Notes under the pieces: generated by a model
What the model was told of the DNA's origin: nothing
The model's input: the letters and a program-made list of their open reading frames with translations, nothing else
The model's database searches: none
Shown: positions 6,000-19,634 of the stretch, piece after piece
Numbering within the stretch: position 1 is the first letter of the stretch
How the letters are laid out: each line of letters begins with the position of its first letter
Program-made: the position numbers and the translations under genes
Assembly: GCA_020629815.1 (NCBI GenBank)
Contig: JAHDCN010000026.1
Span: 1-19,634, forward strand
DNA from: Verrucomicrobiota bacterium
GTDB taxonomy: Bacteria > Verrucomicrobiota > Verrucomicrobiia > Verrucomicrobiales > DEV007
Direction of reading: 5' to 3'
DNA length: 19,634 nt

Positions 6000-6011
6000 T
6001 GTCTTTAATTG

Positions 6012-7529
6012 ATGAAAATCCTCGGACTCCTGTTTTTTTGTCTCCCGCTTTTTCCCGTCATTCTCTGGTCAGAGGAATCTCCCCGCCTTTCCGGCATTTG
6101 GTCCGATGGCATCGTATTGCAGAGAGACCGGCCCATCGTCGTCAGGGGTTTTGGGGCCGGTGCCGGGAACCAATTGGAATTACAGCTCGGTGAACAGCGC
6201 TGGAAATCGCAGGCTAACGCGAATGGAGAGTGGGTTGTAACAATTCCGGCGCAGCCTGCCTCCGATATCGGCGTCTCCCTTTCTCTCAAGCAAGACGCGA
6301 AGGTCATTCAGGAAGTGAAAGATATCCTGTTTGGCGATGTTTGGCTGGCTGCCGGGCAGTCCAACATGCAATGGCAGGTCAAAGGCATGATCAAAGGTCT
6401 GCCGGAAACCAAAGATTGGGCGGATGCCGTTCACCTTCCATACGTTCGCTATCGCAGGGTGAACGACCCGGTTCTTACCGATCGAAAGAAGCGCGCTGCT
6501 GAATTACAGTCGGGCGAATGGAAAAAGCTCACGGCAGAGAACGTGTTGCAGTTCTCAGCAGTCGCCGCAGTCTTCGCCGAATCGATTGCCGAAGAAGTGA
6601 GTGTGCCCATTGGAATCATCGATGTGAGTTGGGGAGGCAAACCGATCGAGCCCTTTATTCCGCGGGAAAATTTTGAAACCTCTCTGCTCAAGCAAATTCG
6701 CGATCTTGCTGATGCCGATAGGCTCGAGGAATTGCAGAACTTGCCAGGCGGAGTGATAATTCGAAATCCGGAAGGCTATCCCGGATCGATTTACCATGCG
6801 AGAATGGCTCCGCTGAACTCGTTTCCAGTAAAAGGATTTCTCTGGTATCAGGGTGAATCCAATGCAGGGAAAGGGGAAGACCCTCGTGAATATCGCCACA
6901 AGATGAGGGCGCTCGTTTCCGGTTGGCGGCAGGATTGGCAGGACGACCAACTGCCAATTTACTTTGTGCAGTTGCCCTCTTTTGAACCGGCTACCGGTTG
7001 GATTCGTATGCGCGAAGAGCAGCGTCTGGCTTCTCTTTCGATTCCAAACTCAGCGATGGCCGTTACCATTGATTTGCCCGGGGAGGACATCCACCCGCCG
7101 CACAAAATCGAAGTCGGGAAACGTCTCGCACGGTTGGCTTTGAAGAAGACCTACGGACGGAATATAGTTCCTTGCGGCCCTGTCCTGGAGAGCGCCAATT
7201 TTTCCGGCGGCGAGGCGATGCTGAAGTTCACCAATATCGGAGAAGGTCTTGAGGTCAGAAGTTATGGGCTGAAGCGCAGCATCGACGATATCCTTTCTGC
7301 CGAATTAGACTGGATAGAACTAGCCGGACAAGACGGCATCTGGCATCCGGCAAAAGCCGAGTTTCAAGACTTTGGCCTTATCGTCAGCAGCCCAGACGTT
7401 CCCGATCCCAAAGCGGTTCGCTACGGATGCGCCACCATGCCGCAGGGAAACAACCTTTACAATTCAGAGGGACTGCCAGCTTCACCGTTTTGCACAAAAC
7501 TCGAATGGTTGCCATGGCAGCAGCAGTGA
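6012..7529 (+). CDS. Secreted sialate O-acetylesterase-like hydrolase (SGNH type)
   Basis: A 505-residue exported esterase of the sialate O-acetylesterase / SASA group, which removes acetyl groups from sugars such as sialic acids or acetylated polysaccharides. The start at 6012 gives a signal peptide (MKILGLLFFCLPLFPVILWS); a TTG one codon upstream is less likely. A beta-rich N-terminal region (about 24-108) precedes the SGNH block I motif GQSNM with nucleophile Ser117. Further family motifs are IIDVSWGGKPIEPFIP, WYQGESNAGKGEDPREY and near 358-366 GEDIHPPHK with Asp359 and His361, then VGKRLARLAL. All expected catalytic segments are present, so it should be active. It sits only 12 bases beyond the DUF5069 terminator and therefore needs read-through or a promoter inside the upstream region. 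Together with the two sulfatases it suggests breakdown of decorated polysaccharides. Exact substrate unknown. Confidence 0.9.
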   Translation: MKILGLLFFCLPLFPVILWSEESPRLSGIWSDGIVLQRDRPIVVRGFGAGAGNQLELQLGEQRWKSQANANGEWVVTIPAQPASDIGVSLSLKQDAKVIQEVKDILFGDVWLAAGQSNMQWQVKGMIKGLPETKDWADAVHLPYVRYRRVNDPVLTDRKKRAAELQSGEWKKLTAENVLQFSAVAAVFAESIAEEVSVPIGIIDVSWGGKPIEPFIPRENFETSLLKQIRDLADADRLEELQNLPGGVIIRNPEGYPGSIYHARMAPLNSFPVKGFLWYQGESNAGKGEDPREYRHKMRALVSGWRQDWQDDQLPIYFVQLPSFEPATGWIRMREEQRLASLSIPNSAMAVTIDLPGEDIHPPHKIEVGKRLARLALKKTYGRNIVPCGPVLESANFSGGEAMLKFTNIGEGLEVRSYGLKRSIDDILSAELDWIELAGQDGIWHPAKAEFQDFGLIVSSPDVPDPKAVRYGCATMPQGNNLYNSEGLPASPFCTKLEWLPWQQQ

Positions 7530-8979: not shown

Positions 8980-11547
8980 ATGCGTACACTTCTGTTGATT
9001 TTTCTTGGCCTCAGCTCGCTGCTTTTCGCTGAAGAGCGTCCACCGAATATCGTCTACATCATGTCGGACGAGTTGGCCTATTTTGAATTGGGCCACATGG
9101 GCAATCCTTATATCAAGACGCCCAATATGGACAAGATGGCGGAACAGGGAATCCGTTTCACCAATGCCTACGCTGCCTCTCCGGTCTGTGCGCCATTGCG
9201 CGGCCAACTGATGACGGGAAAACACTCCGGTCACGCATCGGTTCGAGCCAATGATGGGGGAACTCCACTCCGCGCCGATGAAGTCACGATTGCCTCGATG
9301 CTGAAAGATCAGAAAGGCTACGCTACCGGCGGCTATGGAAAGTGGGGTGCAGGCGGACGCGATTCCACAGGTGTTCCGGAAAAGCACGGTTTCGATGATT
9401 TTTTCGGTTACTACGATCAGGTCCACGCCCATTCGTTCTATCCGCCTTACCTCGTCAGGAACAGCGAAGAGGTGGAGCTCAAAGGTAACATCGGCGGTCG
9501 AACTGGCGAGTCGTATGCGCACTACCCGATCATGAAGGCGGGGCTGGAGTTCATTCGCAAAAACAAAGACAAACCGTTCTTTGCCTATTTTCCAATCACG
9601 CCTCCCCACGGCATGTATGACATCCCCGCAGACGATCCAGCCTGGGAGCAATACAAGGACGAGGAATGGATGAAAGACCCTTCGCTGGCGCAGGATATCA
9701 AAAACTACGCCGCGATGGTGACCATGATCGACAACGACCTGGGCGATATCGTTGCTTTGCTCGAAGAGCTGAAGCTGACTGATAACACGGTCGTTTTCTT
9801 CACCGGTGACAATGGTGGTGAAGATCGTTTTAAGAGCAAAGATCATCCGCGTGGTTTCTTTGGAGCGAATGTAAACCCGAAGACCGGAGTCGGATTTCGC
9901 GGTGGCAAGCGACTGCTCTACGAAGGTGGGTTGAAGATTCCCTTTTTGGTCAAGTGGCCCGGTAAAATCAAAGCCGGTCGCGTGAGTGATTTCATGTTTG
10001 CTCAGTACGATATCATGGACACGCTCGCCGACATTGCCGGAGCGAAGGCGCCGGACGACACCGATGGCATTTCCATCCTTCCTGAGTTGCTGGGGAAAAA
10101 ACAGGAAGGTCATGAAATGTTTTACTGGGAATACGGCAGCCAGACCGCTGTTCGCTGGGAACAGTGGAAAGCGATCCAACCCAAAAAGGACGGCCCGTGG
10201 GAATTGTACGATCTGAACAAAGATATCAGCGAAGCGAACGACGTAGCAGCCCGCTATCCCGCTCAGCTGAAGAAGATGCAGGAGTTTGCGAAGTCGCAGC
10301 ATATTCCAGCAGTGATCGGAACCTATTCTGATCCGGAAAGAAAACGCCACGAAAAAGATCGCTGGGCAAAATGGGGGACAGTCAAAGATCAACCGACCAG
10401 TTTGCCGAAGGGCACTTCCAAGCGAATCAAGCACAAGCACCGGATACCGGCCGACCAGGTGAAGCTACTTCGGTTCAGCAGTGAAAATCGCGGCAATGAC
10501 CGACTGGCTCCGTATGCGATTAATGGGATGCCGGGCAAAGTCTGGCATTCCAATTTTTCTGACAAACCGGCCAAGCATCCGCATGAGCTGGTAGTCGATC
10601 TTGGACGCGCTCGGGAGTTGACCTCGATTCACTACCTTGCCCGACAGGACAAGGGCTGGAATGGAGCTTTTGCGAAGACGAGTTTTTTCATCAGTAACAA
10701 TCCGGATCAGTTTCCGGAAAAACCTCAGCTGACTGCGACTTTTACCAAGACAAAAGAGCCGCAACCTGCGGACTTCGACCAACCGCTAAAAGGTCGCTAC
10801 GTTCTGATTCGCAATGAAAGCGAAGTGAATGGAGGCAAGTTTGGATCAGCAGCAGATATTGGATTTATCGAAGTCGGCCCGAATGAAAAACCTGAGAACC
10901 TTGCCTTCGTCGATAAGTGGCATAACGCCGCGGATAGCTGGGCTATTGCGGGAGAAGTGGTCGGCAGCAAGGAGAAGAAAGAGTGGGCAAAGGTCGAAGA
11001 TGGCAAAGGTATTTTCTACAATGGATCAAAGGAGAAAGCCGCGAATATCCGGAGTAAATTCCAACATGGTGACGTGGAGGCTCAGGTAGAGTTCATGGTT
11101 CCGAAAGGTTCGAACTCCGGGCTGTATTTCATGGAGCGCTATGAGGTGCAAATTCTCGACAGTTTCGGGAAGTCGAACGCTCAGATCAGCAAGCACGATT
11201 GCGGTGCGATCTACGAACGCTGGAATAAAGATGCTCCCAAAGGTAAGCAGGGATATGAGGGGAATCCTCCCTCCTCGAACCAGAGTAAGGCTCCGGGAAA
11301 ATGGCAATCGTTTCACATCGTCTTCCGTGCACCGCGCTTCGATGCCAATGGAAACAAAACTGAGAAGGCCCGGTTTGTTTCGGTAAAACACAATGGTGTT
11401 GAGATTCACCGCAATGTGGAAGTTACCGGACCCACTCGTGGCGGCAAAGGCCTACCCGAAGCTCCGGTGGGTTCACTGGTGATTCAAGGTGATCACGGAC
11501 CCGTGGCGTTTCGAAAAATTCACCTGAAGCCGCTTACGTTACCGTAG
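8980..11547 (+). CDS. Secreted multidomain sulfatase with F5/8-C-like and DUF1080 modules
   Basis: An 855-residue exported protein that joins three modules. Signal peptide MRTLLLIFLGLSSLLFAEE; then a sulfatase domain (about 21-470) with C-A-P-L-R at Cys70-Arg74, TGDNGGEDRF and YEGGLKIPFLVKWPG. The usual metal-binding Asp-Asp is Asp30-Glu31 (IMSDELAYFELG). From about 483 to 634 comes a discoidin/F5-8-type-C-like domain (ELVVDLGRARELTSIHYLAR, later KGRYVLIRNESEV and ADIGFIEV), usually carbohydrate-binding. From about 641 to the end is a DUF1080 (3-keto-disaccharide hydrolase / concanavalin-like) domain with GSNSGLYFMERYEVQILDS and GPVAFRKIHLKPL. The likely role is attack on sulfated glycans outside the cytoplasm. 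The signature has Leu where Ser/Thr is usual, but C-x-P-x-R is kept, so formylglycine maturation remains plausible. A GAGGG tract abuts the ATG. Confidence 0.92.
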   Translation: MRTLLLIFLGLSSLLFAEERPPNIVYIMSDELAYFELGHMGNPYIKTPNMDKMAEQGIRFTNAYAASPVCAPLRGQLMTGKHSGHASVRANDGGTPLRADEVTIASMLKDQKGYATGGYGKWGAGGRDSTGVPEKHGFDDFFGYYDQVHAHSFYPPYLVRNSEEVELKGNIGGRTGESYAHYPIMKAGLEFIRKNKDKPFFAYFPITPPHGMYDIPADDPAWEQYKDEEWMKDPSLAQDIKNYAAMVTMIDNDLGDIVALLEELKLTDNTVVFFTGDNGGEDRFKSKDHPRGFFGANVNPKTGVGFRGGKRLLYEGGLKIPFLVKWPGKIKAGRVSDFMFAQYDIMDTLADIAGAKAPDDTDGISILPELLGKKQEGHEMFYWEYGSQTAVRWEQWKAIQPKKDGPWELYDLNKDISEANDVAARYPAQLKKMQEFAKSQHIPAVIGTYSDPERKRHEKDRWAKWGTVKDQPTSLPKGTSKRIKHKHRIPADQVKLLRFSSENRGNDRLAPYAINGMPGKVWHSNFSDKPAKHPHELVVDLGRARELTSIHYLARQDKGWNGAFAKTSFFISNNPDQFPEKPQLTATFTKTKEPQPADFDQPLKGRYVLIRNESEVNGGKFGSAADIGFIEVGPNEKPENLAFVDKWHNAADSWAIAGEVVGSKEKKEWAKVEDGKGIFYNGSKEKAANIRSKFQHGDVEAQVEFMVPKGSNSGLYFMERYEVQILDSFGKSNAQISKHDCGAIYERWNKDAPKGKQGYEGNPPSSNQSKAPGKWQSFHIVFRAPRFDANGNKTEKARFVSVKHNGVEIHRNVEVTGPTRGGKGLPEAPVGSLVIQGDHGPVAFRKIHLKPLTLP

Positions 11548-14203: not shown

Positions 14204-14241
14204 GTCTTGCGGTAATAATGAGGTTTGTTCACCCTTCAGGC

Positions 14242-14523
14242 ATGAGAAATCACCTGCTGACCGGCTTGCTTTTTGTTTTCAGTGTCATTTCTCTATCCAG
14301 CTGCGCCACGACTCCCGATGCTGGAGCAACCACTGCTGCTGTGCCCTACCCACTGAAAACATGCGTGGTAATGGATGGGGTGGCATTAAAGCAGGAGGGA
14401 CGTCCCATCCGGACCGTTTATCAGGGGCAGGAAATGCTGTTCTGCTGCAAGCAGTGTCTTCGCATATTTCAAAAAGATCCGGAGCAGTATATGAGCAAAT
14501 TCAGACAACAAACTGGCGGGTAA
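14242..14523 (+). CDS. Small lipoprotein with YHS-like metal-binding domain
   Basis: A 93-residue lipoprotein. From the ATG at 14242 a classic type II signal (MRNHLL, then TGLLFVFSVI) leads to the lipobox LSSC with Cys21 as the lipid-attachment site; an earlier in-frame ATG at 14218 would lengthen the signal without need. After an Ala/Thr-rich spacer the domain YPLKTCVVMDG (Cys41) and the second motif FCCKQC (Cys68, Cys69, Cys72), followed by FQKDPEQYMSKF, match the YHS pattern of an early Cys, then FC-x2-C-x3-F-x-DPxxY. YHS domains are found in heavy-metal, often copper, handling proteins, so metal binding in the periplasm is inferred. It is divergent from the zinc-ribbon gene and stands alone. 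Confidence 0.82.
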   Translation: MRNHLLTGLLFVFSVISLSSCATTPDAGATTAAVPYPLKTCVVMDGVALKQEGRPIRTVYQGQEMLFCCKQCLRIFQKDPEQYMSKFRQQTGG

Positions 14524-14528
14524 CCCAA

Positions 14529-14559
14529 TTTACCCTAACATTTTGTGAAAAAATATAAT
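14529..14559 (+). promoter_or_regulatory. Candidate promoter of the coiled-coil/GTPase operon
   Basis: A perfect -10 hexamer TATAAT (14554-14559) sits in an AT-rich gap, with TTTACC (14529-14534) as a possible -35 at a long 19-base spacing. A second possibility closer to the gene is TGTGATAAT (14591-14599), an extended -10. The gap is the most AT-rich stretch in the window and lies directly before a run of four same-strand genes, so a promoter here is likely even if the exact pair is uncertain. Confidence 0.45.
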
Positions 14560-14609
14560 TAACATAATTTAGGTTTACAAAAACCATAATTGTGATAATT
14601 TTAGGAGTT

Positions 14610-15281
14610 ATGGCAACTCCTAGCCCGAATCAACCCGAGCAACAGGACAGCATGGAAGCTGTTCGTGACCTACTTTTTGGCAAAAAGTCCAATGAGATCA
14701 GTGAACGTTTTGTGTCGCTGGAGCGCTCACTCCGTGAAGCGGTCGACCGCGTCGAAGAACGCGTGAATGGACGTTTCGACTCTCTCGATCAGTATCTCCG
14801 AGCTGAGGCTGAGTCTACTCAGGCCGAAATCCGGATGCTGGAAGAGAAAATTCGCTCCGAGGCAGCGCAACGTGAATCCGAGGATCGCAATCTTTCCGAT
14901 CTGATGGGTGCAATGAAATCATCGAATGATGACCGTATGACAAAAGCCGATCAGGCATTATCGGAAGTCCGCGACAACACCAGACAGGAAATTTTTACTC
15001 AAACGAAGCGCCTGTCCGACGAGATCAGCGATACCCGTCGGGAATTGCTCAAGCGCATTGAGAATGACATTGCTCAGTATGCCGAGACTGTTTCTGACCG
15101 TGATGAACTTGGTGGAATGCTGATCGAGATGGGACTTCGCATCAAGCCCGGTTCTGCAGACGAAGGCCAGCCAGTATTGGAGCTGGAAGCAGGGGACGTT
15201 GAAGAAGTTTCCGATCAAGCCGGTGAAGAAGATTCCGAAGGCCGCCTGGTAAAAGACGTTACGATTGAATTGAGTCGCTAA
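14610..15281 (+). CDS. Cytoplasmic coiled-coil protein, first gene of the GTPase cluster
   Basis: A 223-residue protein with no signal peptide or membrane segment. After a Pro/Gln-rich start (MATPSPNQPEQQDS) and DLLFGKKSNEI comes a long, highly charged helical region (about residues 25-165) with heptad spacing: ERFVSLERSLREAVDRVEER, VNGRFDSLDQYL, AEIRMLEEKIRSEAAQRE, then QEIFTQTKRLSDEISDTRRE and LLKRIENDIAQ. The rest is DELGGMLIEMGLRI and an acidic tail. It should form an extended coiled coil, perhaps a scaffold or tether. The start at 14610 is preceded by AGGAG only two bases away. It is 40 bp upstream of the BON/OmpA-like gene on the same strand. I do not recognise a named family; its function is inferred only from structure and position. 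Confidence 0.75.
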   Translation: MATPSPNQPEQQDSMEAVRDLLFGKKSNEISERFVSLERSLREAVDRVEERVNGRFDSLDQYLRAEAESTQAEIRMLEEKIRSEAAQRESEDRNLSDLMGAMKSSNDDRMTKADQALSEVRDNTRQEIFTQTKRLSDEISDTRRELLKRIENDIAQYAETVSDRDELGGMLIEMGLRIKPGSADEGQPVLELEAGDVEEVSDQAGEEDSEGRLVKDVTIELSR

Positions 15282-15321
15282 TCTCACCGCTTTGTTTCCC
15301 CTCCGCCATTACCCTGAAGGA

Positions 15322-17196
15322 ATGAGCGAAAGCCCTGAAAGTACAGTAGCCAAAAACGATCAACCAAAGGCCAGCCGTGATGAGCTGACCCGGTTGAAGG
15401 AGTTGATTTTGGCGAACGAGCACCATGCTCTGTCGACTCTGCAGTCAGAGTTGCTGAAGGTTCAGGATTTGCCCGGTATTTTGGCGGAACGTCACGGCGA
15501 CTCTTCAGACCGGCTTTCGAAAGCGCTCGCTTTGCCACTCGTGGATGCGGTGAAGATCAGTGCGTCTAAAGAAGGGAAAGAACTTTCCTCAGCGCTGTTC
15601 CCGATCATGGGACCGGCGATCCGTCTTTATGTCTCCGACATGCTGCGTGGTCTCACCGAACAGCTGAACGAAACGATTAAGTCGGCGACTTCGGTGAAAC
15701 AGATCAAATGGCGTGCCGAAGCCAAGATGATGGGGAAACCCTATTCGGAGTATCTCCTGCTCAAAACGATCAACTACCGGATCGAATATGTTTTGATGGT
15801 CGATCCCGACTCCGGGTTGCTGCTTCAGCAAGTGTCGCGGGATTCTGCTGCGAATGACAATCCAGAACTCGTTTCCAGCATGCTGGTTGCGATTCGTAGC
15901 TTCGTTCGTGATTCCTTTGCCCAGGGTGGAGAAGGGGAGCTCGGTCGGTTCTCTTTCGGGGAACACGAAATTTTCCTCGAGACCGGACCGGATGCGATTA
16001 TCGCAGCGGTAGGAACAGGTACTCCGCCGCCGGCTTTCCGGAGCCAGATGAAGGAGACGTTGGAAGCCATTCACACTGAAGGCGGAGAAACGCTGGCAAA
16101 CTTTGACGGAGATCAGTCGTCGGTAGCATTTTCCAGAATACATCTCGAGAAACTGCTGGTAGAAAACAAGGCTGTTTCTGAGGGGAGTAATCCCTGGCCG
16201 TTGCGAATTGCAGCAGGAATCGTTGGGTTGGGTTTACTAGGGGTCGCCGGATTCTATGGTTTTGAGAACTGGAAGTGGAAGAAAGCCGTTACAGCTCTTC
16301 AGGATACCCCGGGTATCGAGGTGTATCAAAACGAGCGGGGCTGGTGGAATAAGCGAATCCTTGGAATTCTGCATGATCCTCTTGCCGTTTCGCCGGTGCA
16401 GGTAATCGAATCTCACGATATTGCTATTAGCCGGGCGAAGCTTCGGATCACGCCTTTCGAGTCGCCGAATGAGCCAATGGCTTCGCAGCGTGCTGCTGAA
16501 GAAGAGAAGGCACGTAACGAAGTGATTCGCCAGTACGAAGAGCGACTGACGCAGCTGAATGAACAGGTATCTTCTTTGCAAGAGACATCAGTGGAACTGA
16601 GGAAGCTTGCCAGCACCAAGGGTATTTCTCCTGAGCAATGGCAGACCCTGTTGGCGTCTGACTTCTATTCCCGCTACCAGGTTCGAGACTCGGTCGATCT
16701 CAATTTCGATGCCGATTCAAACACGTGGAAGGTTAGCGGTCGTATTGAGGAACCTGTTTTCTCCCAAATTCAGGAGGAAGCTGCCGACTTCTTTCCCGAT
16801 TCCACTGTCGATACTTCGACTTTGCAAGACTCCTCTGCCGACCGAATGGCTGAGCTGCGCGACCAAATCGAGAAGTCCCGAATTACCTTTCTTCGCGATA
16901 GCGAGATTGTTTCCAAGGATGGTTTTGCAGCCCGGGAGAGAGTGCACCGCGCCCTTTCCGAGCTCGAGCAGCTGCACCGTCTGACCGGGACCTTCCCTCT
17001 CCCTAATATTGAAATTTTCGCGACATCAAAAGCATCAAGTTCCAATCTTCGCGCCTCTACCATCATCCGAAAGCGCCTGATTTTGGAGTCTGAGGCCCTG
17101 GAAGAAGAGGGCTTCGGGGAAACACGAGTTCGCCCCGTGATTGACCGTAAAGCTTCCGTGTCGTCAGAAGACACCCTGTATTTCCGCATTAAATAG
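15322..17196 (+). CDS. Membrane-anchored protein with BON-like domains and degenerate OmpA-like C-terminus
   Basis: A 624-residue protein resembling the large proteins annotated 'OmpA family' in various phyla that share an N-terminal helical module. That module (about 10-280) contains LKELILANEHHALSTLQSEL, LPLVDAVKIS, LFPIMGPAIRLYVSDMLRGL, IKWRAEAKMMGKPYSEYLLL and YVLMVDPDSGLLLQQVS, and should be cytoplasmic as there is no signal peptide. One membrane helix follows at about 292-314 (PLRIAAGIVGLGLLGVAGFY). Outside are a BON-like segment (DTPGIEVYQNERG, ILGILHDPLA), a coiled coil (NEVIRQYEERLTQLNEQVSS), a second BON-like part (WKVSGRIEEPVFSQI) and a C-terminal part (IEIFATSKASSSNLRASTII) in the position of an OmpA-like domain. 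The usual TD-x-x-G-x3-N pattern of peptidoglycan binding is mostly lost. The product may link a cytoplasmic GTPase to the envelope. ATG at 15322 is preferred over TTG at 15292. Confidence 0.78.
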   Translation: MSESPESTVAKNDQPKASRDELTRLKELILANEHHALSTLQSELLKVQDLPGILAERHGDSSDRLSKALALPLVDAVKISASKEGKELSSALFPIMGPAIRLYVSDMLRGLTEQLNETIKSATSVKQIKWRAEAKMMGKPYSEYLLLKTINYRIEYVLMVDPDSGLLLQQVSRDSAANDNPELVSSMLVAIRSFVRDSFAQGGEGELGRFSFGEHEIFLETGPDAIIAAVGTGTPPPAFRSQMKETLEAIHTEGGETLANFDGDQSSVAFSRIHLEKLLVENKAVSEGSNPWPLRIAAGIVGLGLLGVAGFYGFENWKWKKAVTALQDTPGIEVYQNERGWWNKRILGILHDPLAVSPVQVIESHDIAISRAKLRITPFESPNEPMASQRAAEEEKARNEVIRQYEERLTQLNEQVSSLQETSVELRKLASTKGISPEQWQTLLASDFYSRYQVRDSVDLNFDADSNTWKVSGRIEEPVFSQIQEEAADFFPDSTVDTSTLQDSSADRMAELRDQIEKSRITFLRDSEIVSKDGFAARERVHRALSELEQLHRLTGTFPLPNIEIFATSKASSSNLRASTIIRKRLILESEALEEEGFGETRVRPVIDRKASVSSEDTLYFRIK

Positions 17197-17215
17197 ATTT
17201 CCCGTTTTCACTATC

Positions 17216-17737
17216 ATGAGTGCCCAGAAGAAAATATGTATGCTTGGCTCGTTTGGAGTTGGTAAGACCAGTCTTGTGAGTCGCTTTGTCCACTCCATTT
17301 TCTCGGAAGAATATCTGACCACTATCGGTGTGAAGATTGATAAGAAAGAGATGAGCGTGGCCGGCGAAGATTTGCAGCTGATTCTCTGGGATTTGGCTGG
17401 TGATGACCGGTTCGACAATTTGCAATCTTCCTACCTCATGGGAATCTCCGGTTTCCTGCTCGTTGTCGATGGCTGTCGTTACGATACATTGAAAGTAGCC
17501 AAGACTATTCTCGATAAGAATCAGGCTCAGCTCCGCAATGTGCCCTTTCTTTGCCTCATCAATAAGAGTGACTTGGAAGCTGACTGGGAGATTCGCAAAG
17601 AGCACATCGACTTGATGACGCAGGCAGGTTGGCATGTTCGCAAGACCTCAGCGAAGGATGGAGACTCTGTTGAAGAGTCCTTTCATGACCTCGCAACTTT
17701 GATGCTCGGTAAGGACCTTGTTGTTCTTCCCGGTTAA
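17216..17737 (+). CDS. Ras/Rab-like small GTPase
   Basis: A 173-residue prokaryotic member of the Ras superfamily. All five G motifs are visible: G1 GSFGVGKTS (11-19), G2 Thr36 in TTIGVKI, G3 WDLAGDDRF (58-66), G4 NKSD (116-119) and G5 TSAKDG (144-149). The overall layout and length are closer to Rab/Ras than to TrmE/Era-type GTPases, and it lacks the TKRD form of G4 common in MglA. The residue equivalent to Ras Gln61 is Asp63, so the canonical catalytic Gln is missing. There is no C-terminal cysteine for lipidation, so membrane recruitment, if any, would be through a partner. The start at 17216 is 19 bases after the previous gene with no Shine-Dalgarno sequence; an upstream in-frame ATG at 17141 would overlap that gene. 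It is probably cotranscribed with its neighbours. Confidence 0.92.
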   Translation: MSAQKKICMLGSFGVGKTSLVSRFVHSIFSEEYLTTIGVKIDKKEMSVAGEDLQLILWDLAGDDRFDNLQSSYLMGISGFLLVVDGCRYDTLKVAKTILDKNQAQLRNVPFLCLINKSDLEADWEIRKEHIDLMTQAGWHVRKTSAKDGDSVEESFHDLATLMLGKDLVVLPG

Positions 17738-17773
17738 CTATTTTCGCCATTTTCTATCCCCTCACCATTTTTA

Positions 17774-19634
17774 ATGAACCCCACCGAATCGAAAATTCTG
17801 GCCACGCTTGACCTTGCGTTGCTAGCTTGCCCAAAAGGTCGCACGAACGCTCTGCAGCTGCAGAACGCTGATGTGCCAGAGTGGCTGGAGGACTATTTTG
17901 GCGAGAGCTGGAACAGTGACCGTTGCCGGATTGAAGTGGAGGAGTTCTCCGCGATTGGTGCCTTCATTCAGCATTGTACGCTTTGCTTTGAAACCGGAAA
18001 TTTCACTGGACCTGAGTCGATTGTTTTTGAGGAAGACTTTGGAGGAAAAGGCCAATTTTCCGGCGAGATCACAGCGTTTATCGATGAGGAATCGAGTCTG
18101 AAATTTCTCATGCGTCCGGCAAATGATCTGGATGTGATTACGCGCTCCGAGCTGCAAATGATTCGCCAGACTGCACTCAGTAGAACCAATTTTGCCGAGG
18201 CCAGTAGCCATGGGCCATCGACCATGCTGAGCGCCGGTGAGAAGGATTTTTCTGATGTGGAATCCTACTTGATTGGCGCGTTGGATGCTTCGTCTGATGC
18301 CATCCTGATTCTGGATCACGATCGCTGCGTTGTGGGTTGCAACGATACGGCTCGCGAGTTGTTTCCGAAAATTTCCGAGGCAGCTTCCGAAGGGGAAAAT
18401 GCTCTGCGGGAAGAGCTTCTCAACCAGACCGTTTCCCGAAATGACGCCAGTGCTCTCTTGGATCGGGTTAGCCATGGAATCAATCAGCGGATTGAATCCG
18501 AATGGGAATTTGCTGAGCCTTACAAGCACAAGCGTAAGGTCATTGTCTCTCCGGTGAAGAATAGCGGTGGAGCGATCGGCACAGTCTGGAGTTTTGTGAA
18601 AGAAAACGATGCTGAAGAGTTTCACGCTACACTCACAGAAGCAGAGCGCATGGAGGCGATTGGCAGATTGGCCGGTGGAGTTGCCCACGATTTCAACAAC
18701 CTGCTCGCAATCGTGCTGGGTAATTTGACTCTGCTGGAGCATCATCCCGCATACGATAGTGATGAAGATCTTAGCACGCCGGTTACCATGGGAAGACGTG
18801 CTGCTGAGAAAGCGGTGACTCTCGTGAAGCAACTGCTCGGCTACTCCCGCAAGACTCGTCTGCAAACGGAAGTGACCAGCATGGAGGAGCTTGTCTCAGG
18901 AACGACTGAACTTTTCCAGAGCACCGGCCAGACCGGTATCGAAGTGGTTGTCGATCTCGAAGACGATGCCTGGGATGTAAAAGTCGATAGCGATCAGATG
19001 CAGCAGGTGATCATGAACATCCTGCAAAATGCCGGGCATGCTACCGGCGAGGATGGAAAAGTAACTGTTACGACCAGAAACTTCGTTCTCAATGATCGCG
19101 ATATGGCTGAAGCGATGGAATGTGATCCCGGGCACTATGTGATCATCACGATTGCTGATAACGGCAGTGGAATGGATGAAGATACCCGCGAGAAAGTCTT
19201 TGAGCCTTTCTTCACTACGAAAGGCCCCGGTAAAGGCACTGGTCTAGGTCTCGCCAATGCTCTTGGGATAGCTCGTCAGCATGGCGGGAACCTCACCTGC
19301 ACATCAGCTCTGGGGCAGGGTACCGCTTTCAGCATCTATCTACCTCGCCACCGTGACCAGATGGAGGAGGCGAAAAAGAAAAGTGCGATCGTCACCAAGA
19401 GGGAGGAAAAGCCTGCCGAGAACGATGGCACTCCTGCGATCCTGGTTGTCGATGATGAAGAGCTTCTCCGCAATCTAGTTCGGACCATGCTGGAGAAAAA
19501 TGGCTTTCGCACCTATGGCGCAGAGAACGGTCACGAGGCTTTGAAGATTATTGAGAGTCACCGCGACGAAATTATTTCTATCGTTCTGGATCTCGCAATG
19601 CCCGAAATGACCGGGACAGAAACCTTCAAGCGAC
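17774..19634 (+). CDS. Hybrid sensor histidine kinase with PAS and receiver domains (3' end missing)
   Basis: The reading frame is open from ATG 17774 to the window edge (620 codons seen). An N-terminal region of about 160 residues has no recognised fold but contains Cys19, Cys51, Cys68 and Cys71, the last two as CTLC. A PAS-like domain follows at about 165-275 ([20 protein letters not shown]). The dimerisation and phosphotransfer segment has the H-box [20 protein letters not shown] with phosphoacceptor His305. The ATPase domain has N-box [10 protein letters not shown]1 [10 protein letters not shown]-box FEPFFTTK and G2 [10 protein letters not shown] receiver domain begins near residue 557 ([10 protein letters not shown]), with Asp606 in [10 protein letters not shown] as phosphate acceptor. 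No membrane segment is seen, so it is a cytoplasmic kinase. It begins 36 bases after the GTPase gene with no terminator between, suggesting cotranscription. The missing end should complete the receiver and may hold more. Confidence 0.93.

Follow-up and report, generated by a model that had tools for sequence, protein, structure and literature searches.

The closest described counterpart of the locus analysed here is the Group 1 Rup system, catalogued in 2014, in which a coiled-coil protein is encoded together with a conserved-domain protein that often carries a transmembrane (TM) segment and an OmpA domain, a Ras-like GTPase, and an output protein (PMC4316618). In the part of that paper available to us, the Group 1 GTPases are described as lacking the Gln of the G3 motif and as very similar to Rab, Ras, Rho, and Ran, a eukaryotic group for which an origin by horizontal transfer has been proposed; the outputs are GGDEF/EAL proteins or histidine kinases with an invariant Gln in the N-terminal region, and, as of 2014, no Rup protein had been characterised and the GTPase-activating protein (GAP) was unknown (PMC4316618). 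The present locus consists of four genes at the end of a 19,634-nucleotide stretch of DNA from a Verrucomicrobiota bacterium (contig JAHDCN010000026.1; hereafter the window), which is an entire contig (G000:C534) of a metagenome-assembled genome that is 69% complete. A sequence-only reading of the window knew of no described function for the four-part combination; the combination is that of the Group 1 Rup system, as laid out in the accessible text of the 2014 paper (PMC4316618), and the sequence fits a variant of this catalogued, uncharacterised system. The best explanation of the whole, with a probability of roughly 0.55, is a Group 1 Rup-type cassette in which a predicted longin domain acts on the GTPase and the GTPase drives a kinase.

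The four open reading frames (ORFs) lie on the plus strand and are separated by 40, 19, and 36 bases, as had been read from the sequence. Gene 1 could begin at either of two codons (GTG or ATG), and the last ORF is open at the end of the window; because the contig ends there, the gene 4 kinase is truncated by the assembly. The features are as follows.

14592 to 15281, plus strand: gene 1, coiled-coil-like cytoplasmic protein, 229 amino acids (aa) from GTG 14592 or 223 aa from ATG 14610.
15322 to 17196, plus strand: gene 2, predicted longin–TM–periplasmic protein of 624 aa, counterpart of the Group 1 Rup "conserved domain–TM–OmpA" protein.
15772 to 16170, plus strand: predicted cytoplasmic longin domain, gene 2 residues 151–283.
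16207 to 16263, plus strand: single transmembrane helix, gene 2 residues 296–314 by hydropathy (helix 291–328 in the structure model).
16837 to 17193, plus strand: OmpA/Pal-like fold (predicted), gene 2 residues 506–624, with Lys in the OmpA Asp column and the Arg retained.
17216 to 17737, plus strand: gene 3, Rab-like GTPase of the Group 1 Rup type, 173 aa, with the motifs GSFGVGKT, TTIGVK, WDLAGD (no Gln), NKSD, and TSAK.
17774 to 19634, plus strand: gene 4, hybrid histidine kinase truncated where the contig stops, with an N-terminal PAS-like domain (by fold only), weak PAS, weak HisKA, HATPase_c, and a partial receiver.
18155 to 18157, plus strand: codon of kinase Gln128, on the helix after the PAS-like domain, a possible counterpart of the Gln whose action in trans was considered in 2014.

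The window shares with the Group 1 Rup systems, as far as the accessible text describes them, a coiled-coil-like protein, a domain–TM–OmpA protein, a GTPase without the G3 Gln, and an output kinase, in which Gln128 is a candidate only for the Rup Gln (PMC4316618). The domain–TM–OmpA partner is recognised through homologues with Pfam OmpA, the TM segment, and the OmpA fold, Pfam OmpA itself being unreached in the gene 2 protein (P0002). In contrast to the 2014 description, in which Verrucomicrobiota is absent from the phyla named in the accessible text and the conserved domain is left unassigned, the domain is here predicted to be a longin, and outputs beyond histidine kinases and GGDEF/EAL proteins are found in related loci (PMC4316618); the OmpA-like part in the window also lacks the Asp. 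MglA–MglB and the conservons (CvnA–D) likewise combine a small GTPase with a GTPase-binding fold in one module, to which the conservons add a kinase, but MglB and CvnB are Roadblock proteins, whereas the window combines a predicted longin, fused to a TM segment and a periplasmic part, with a Rab-like GTPase. The eukaryotic longin Rab exchange factors Mon1–Ccz1 and Fuzzy–Inturned also pair a longin fold with a Rab-type GTPase; these are two-subunit assemblies with several longins, according to the part of the source consulted (PMC6864590), whereas the window encodes a single predicted longin with a TM anchor in a bacterium.

The cassette is uncommon and recurs. With the GTPase as query, 18 other loci were found (3, together with 3 among 56 relatives and 12 among 384 class genomes), and the GTPase is present in 4 of the 56 relatives and 11 of the 384 class genomes, the window's own genome being counted in both. 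Rare adjacency of the homologues elsewhere was not found: the gene 2 core profile matches a gene of the same cluster at 14 of the 18 loci, which is beyond chance, and L002 has a four-gene order identical to that of the window. The membrane protein as query led to a Nostoc plasmid (L023), Mesorhizobium/Rhizobium plasmids (L024 and L025), and L020, and the four-part unit occurs in Verrucomicrobiota and Bacteroidota and also on plasmids, one of them cyanobacterial and others alphaproteobacterial. The genomes of the four loci without gene 2 (L040, L046, L047, and L048) carry it elsewhere, beside a second GTPase copy in G300 and G562 and unlinked in G522 and G531. At L015:6497-8374 (G005), the longin gene shows an in-frame TGA in its search match, and the cluster otherwise holds the coil, GTPase, and kinase genes.

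Co-occurrence extends beyond linkage. Within the class sample, the set of 11 genomes carrying the GTPase (E ≤ 1e-18) coincides with the set of 11 whose longin-core match scores at least 231 bits, a cut that was set after the scores had been seen (the next were 115 and then 67) and that assumes the two draws to be the same 384 genomes. Both genes are present in 16 of 16 genomes picked for either the GTPase or the longin gene, the new co-occurrences among these being only G216 and G367 (picked by the longin gene) and G522 and G531 (picked by the GTPase), and in these four the two genes lie on different contigs. The view that the four genes are mere neighbours without joint function could draw on the lack of promoter or terminator signals above chance in the window, but it is already contradicted by the neighbourhood counts, the clusters recur across phyla, and co-occurrence is seen even without linkage, which leaves it barely credible. 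As to those signals, the promoter-like region that had been placed before gene 1 is AT-rich (GC content 0.225 at 14520–14599), but promoter-like sites stand at the chance level (5 versus 4.4 expected), and the pattern scan found none on the plus strand just 5' of gene 1. Terminator-like sites are also at chance (7 versus 6.3 expected), and those within the genes on the plus strand fall in coding sequence.

The central prediction concerns gene 2, for which no Pfam model reaches its cut-off. In the structure model, the core has the topology ββ-α-βββ-αα, which fits the longin definition in the part of the source consulted (PMC6864590). The structural match covers a whole longin domain, extending over almost the whole of Sec22b and taking in its second C-terminal helix. 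Among the 50 rows listed, the fold matches over the core are to SNARE, coat/adaptor, TRAPP, CPLANE, Mon1–Ccz1, and archaeal chains, which we take to be of the longin type; residues 151–283 are accordingly predicted, from this model, to be a longin domain. A Roadblock-like fold was also considered and is a possible alternative for the core; MglB appears in the Foldseek list for gene 2 at E 5.9e-3 and is absent from the 50 fold-match rows listed for the core. A review table records "Longin/Roadblock" jointly for bacteria (PMC4917890), so that no novelty is claimed for bacterial longin-like domains in general.

Gene 3 was correctly read as a Ras-like GTPase: it is a single 173-aa domain (Pfam Ras, E 1.5e-30) with all five motifs G1–G5. 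The comparison with MglA, in contrast, is not the closest one, as most of the best solved relatives among the matches listed carry the name Rab or Sec4, G3 has no catalytic Gln, and a Pfam scan of 14 window proteins gave no Roadblock (MglB) match. Across 23 GTPases (that of the window plus those of 22 loci, with L024 and L025 counted separately although nearly identical), GxxxxGKT and NKxD are present in all 23 and a SAK-type G5 pattern is detected in 18. None of the 23 has Gln after WDxxG or Gly at the Ras-12 position, which is occupied by F, Y, S, or P. In Ras, changes at the catalytic Gln and at position 12 lower hydrolysis; since both sites are altered here, outside help with hydrolysis is expected. 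The longin could instead be a passive dock that brings GTPase and coiled-coil protein to the membrane without altering the nucleotide state, exchange and hydrolysis being set by another protein. Against this stand the missing Gln in all 23 GTPases, with the outside help it implies, and the fact that no other recurring candidate regulator was noticed in the loci listed, which were not checked systematically; a passive dock is a serious but doubtful alternative.

Gene 1 matches no Pfam family above cut-off. Its N-terminal motif, MEAVRDLLFG, is of a type that is also found in gene 2 proteins, and the similarity of the two N-termini around (R/K)xLLxG, a permissive pattern, suggests that the products of genes 1 and 2 may pair. 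Neighbours that match the gene 1 profile are present at 13 of the 18 other loci, 4 of the 13 (L002, L003, L004, and L017) being profile seeds chosen by position. At L064:3935-5815, one ORF combines a gene 1-type N-terminal motif with a weak longin-core match (36.6 bits); this fused ORF was rejected as evidence of binding because gene 2 proteins bear a similar motif themselves.

The hybrid kinase call for gene 4 also stood, with HATPase_c and the cut receiver above the Pfam cut-off and HisKA (25.2 of 26.9 bits) and PAS (17.9 of 22.6 bits) below it; among NCBIfam models, CckA ranked first, far under its cut-off. The N-terminus of gene 4 as query gave no relative at E ≤ 0.001, and the output-family search was made with the L047 output protein instead. 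An N-terminal domain in which W, FLENFL, and Q are conserved is common to 140 proteins and unnamed in their Pfam annotation; HATPase_c is present in all 120 listed (P0032–P0151), of which the few taxon-named members are presumably of the Acidobacteriota type. Of the 19 locus outputs aligned, 15 have a Gln in the column of kinase Gln128 (the L046 downstream ORF, presumably spurious, was dropped, and L018, L044, and L048, without a plausible output gene, were not aligned); the wider family has the Gln in 128 of 131, the three exceptions all being among the 19 loci. N-terminal domains are shared among output proteins with swapped effectors: elsewhere the gene after the GTPase encodes a class III cyclase, a sigma-54 activator, or a LytTR DNA-binding protein, as in the Mesorhizobium plasmid, where a class III nucleotide cyclase directly follows the Rab-like GTPase (L024:9279-10349). 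These proteins are outputs, and the envelope-facing part sits on gene 2; both points speak against a signal that runs in reverse, with the kinase as sensor and the GTPase as output. Such a direction has a precedent in the actinobacterial conservons, as far as the sources were available (PMC4316618, PMC13343842), and the window kinase does have a PAS-like domain, but the reversed signal is unlikely.

The computation shows the order of the genes and their co-occurrence, the motifs, the folds predicted as longin and PAS-like, and N-terminal domains shared by outputs with swapped effectors; the membrane topology, physical binding, direction of regulation, sensed cue, and role of the Gln are inferred in the preferred scheme, in which the longin acts on the GTPase. 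The gene 2 protein would cross the inner membrane once, and its periplasmic BON/OmpA-like part would sense the state of the envelope. The cytoplasmic longin would bind the Rab-like GTPase and set its nucleotide state, either as an exchange factor or as a GAP platform, assisted by the coiled-coil protein with its similar N-terminal helix motif. The GTP-bound switch would then bind the N-terminal PAS-like domain of the output kinase and activate it, and the Gln on the helix behind this domain may supply the missing catalytic Gln of the GTPase, ending the signal. The predicted longin gives a structural reason for the earlier proposal of a contact between the membrane protein and the GTPase on the cytoplasmic side.

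The envelope part was described earlier as a BON/OmpA-like anchor; the OmpA-like portion holds by fold and relatives, and neither a BON nor an OmpA Pfam model is reached in the gene 2 protein. Among 26 gene 2 members, Pfam matches at E ≤ 10 comprise OmpA in 18 and BON in 4. Residues 506–624 share the fold of the OmpA/Pal peptidoglycan-associated proteins, but the OmpA Asp, the peptidoglycan-binding residue, is Lys in the window protein and is absent from all 12 sequences formed by P0002 and its 11 nearest relatives in alignment A1 (which omits the incomplete P0009 and P0022), as against Asp in 14 of 14 others; the Arg is retained in 26 of 26, in an alignment that is loose in the most divergent rows. 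Peptidoglycan binding should not be assumed for the window protein. Gene 2 in two Cyclobacteriaceae loci is only 271–280 aa long, ending at the core, and both clusters encode a separate PG_binding_1 protein of 210–211 aa (L003:6149-6784 and L004:6128-6760), so that a wall-binding element recurs in a non-homologous form. By eye, these PG_binding_1 proteins have an N-terminal hydrophobic stretch.

Several observations weigh against the preferred scheme. The longin assignment comes from the predicted fold alone, in a single model with an overall predicted template modelling score of 0.36; no longin/Roadblock family matches P0002 at E ≤ 10 or 10 gene 2 relatives at E ≤ 1 (for the other members, 25 of 74 families are listed, and a weak single match could escape), and no longin chain among PDB sequences matches the core profile at E ≤ 10. 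Divergent longins may be linked by fold only. The OmpA Asp is lost in the window, where the alignment is loose, the flanking charges fail to fix the topology (70 K/R before and 79 after the TM segment in 26 proteins), the output Gln is not invariant, and shared ancestry confounds the distance correlation. Moreover, 11 genomes have weaker longin-core matches (G675 at 115 bits and ten of one family at 34–67 bits), and the GTPase was found at E ≤ 1e-4 in none of them, an empty answer that alone shows little; no GTPase of the gene 3 family lies within the 11–12 kb around the longin-like gene at five of the ten loci and in G675. The lack of a sequence link to longins in these searches and the longin-like genes in genomes without the GTPase favour a further alternative, in which the core is a PAS/GAF-type ligand sensor merely resembling a longin, close to the GTPase through a shared pathway rather than through binding; longins do belong to a PAS/GAF-like superfamily, according to the parts of the sources consulted (PMC4917890, PMC3521125). 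The extent of the Sec22b match and the presumed longin type of the fold rows over the core count against it, and it is improbable.

In four of the five inspected loci of that family, a gene 1 relative lies directly 5' of the longin-like gene; these are divergent gene 1–longin-like gene pairs in one family of the same taxonomic order (L057, L058, L059, and L065, from G280, G605, G578, and G651); these pairs may use another GTPase or none. In G675, which has no GTPase match, the longin-core gene (L060:5118-6782) shows an internal TAG in its search match, and the system is perhaps decaying. Elsewhere in the window, a small lipoprotein-like ORF with a CCxxC motif was seen by eye just upstream of gene 1 (14218–14523), and the other genes include two sulfatases (623–2239 and 8980–11547, the second with F5/8 type C and 3-keto-disaccharide hydrolase domains) and a sialic acid-type acetylesterase (6009–7529).

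Literature searches on later Rup work, longins in bacteria, and this combination of genes returned no functional study among the matches listed. As far as the searches reach, four elements look new: the prediction of a longin in the partner that is constant; the range of outputs, with cyclase, sigma-54, and LytTR proteins; the genome-for-genome co-occurrence once only strong matches are counted; and a wall-binding part that is altered or replaced. The predicted longin names a candidate regulator for the Group 1 Rup GTPases and makes two questions testable, namely by what means the GTPases are switched in bacteria, and whether the pairing of Rab with longin predates or parallels membrane traffic in eukaryotes. 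Tentatively, and at less than even odds, the regulator of the bacterial GTPases nearest to Rab and Ras may be an envelope-spanning longin, in which case these bacteria would possess a complete Rab–longin machine with exchangeable outputs, possibly sharing ancestry with the eukaryotic couple.
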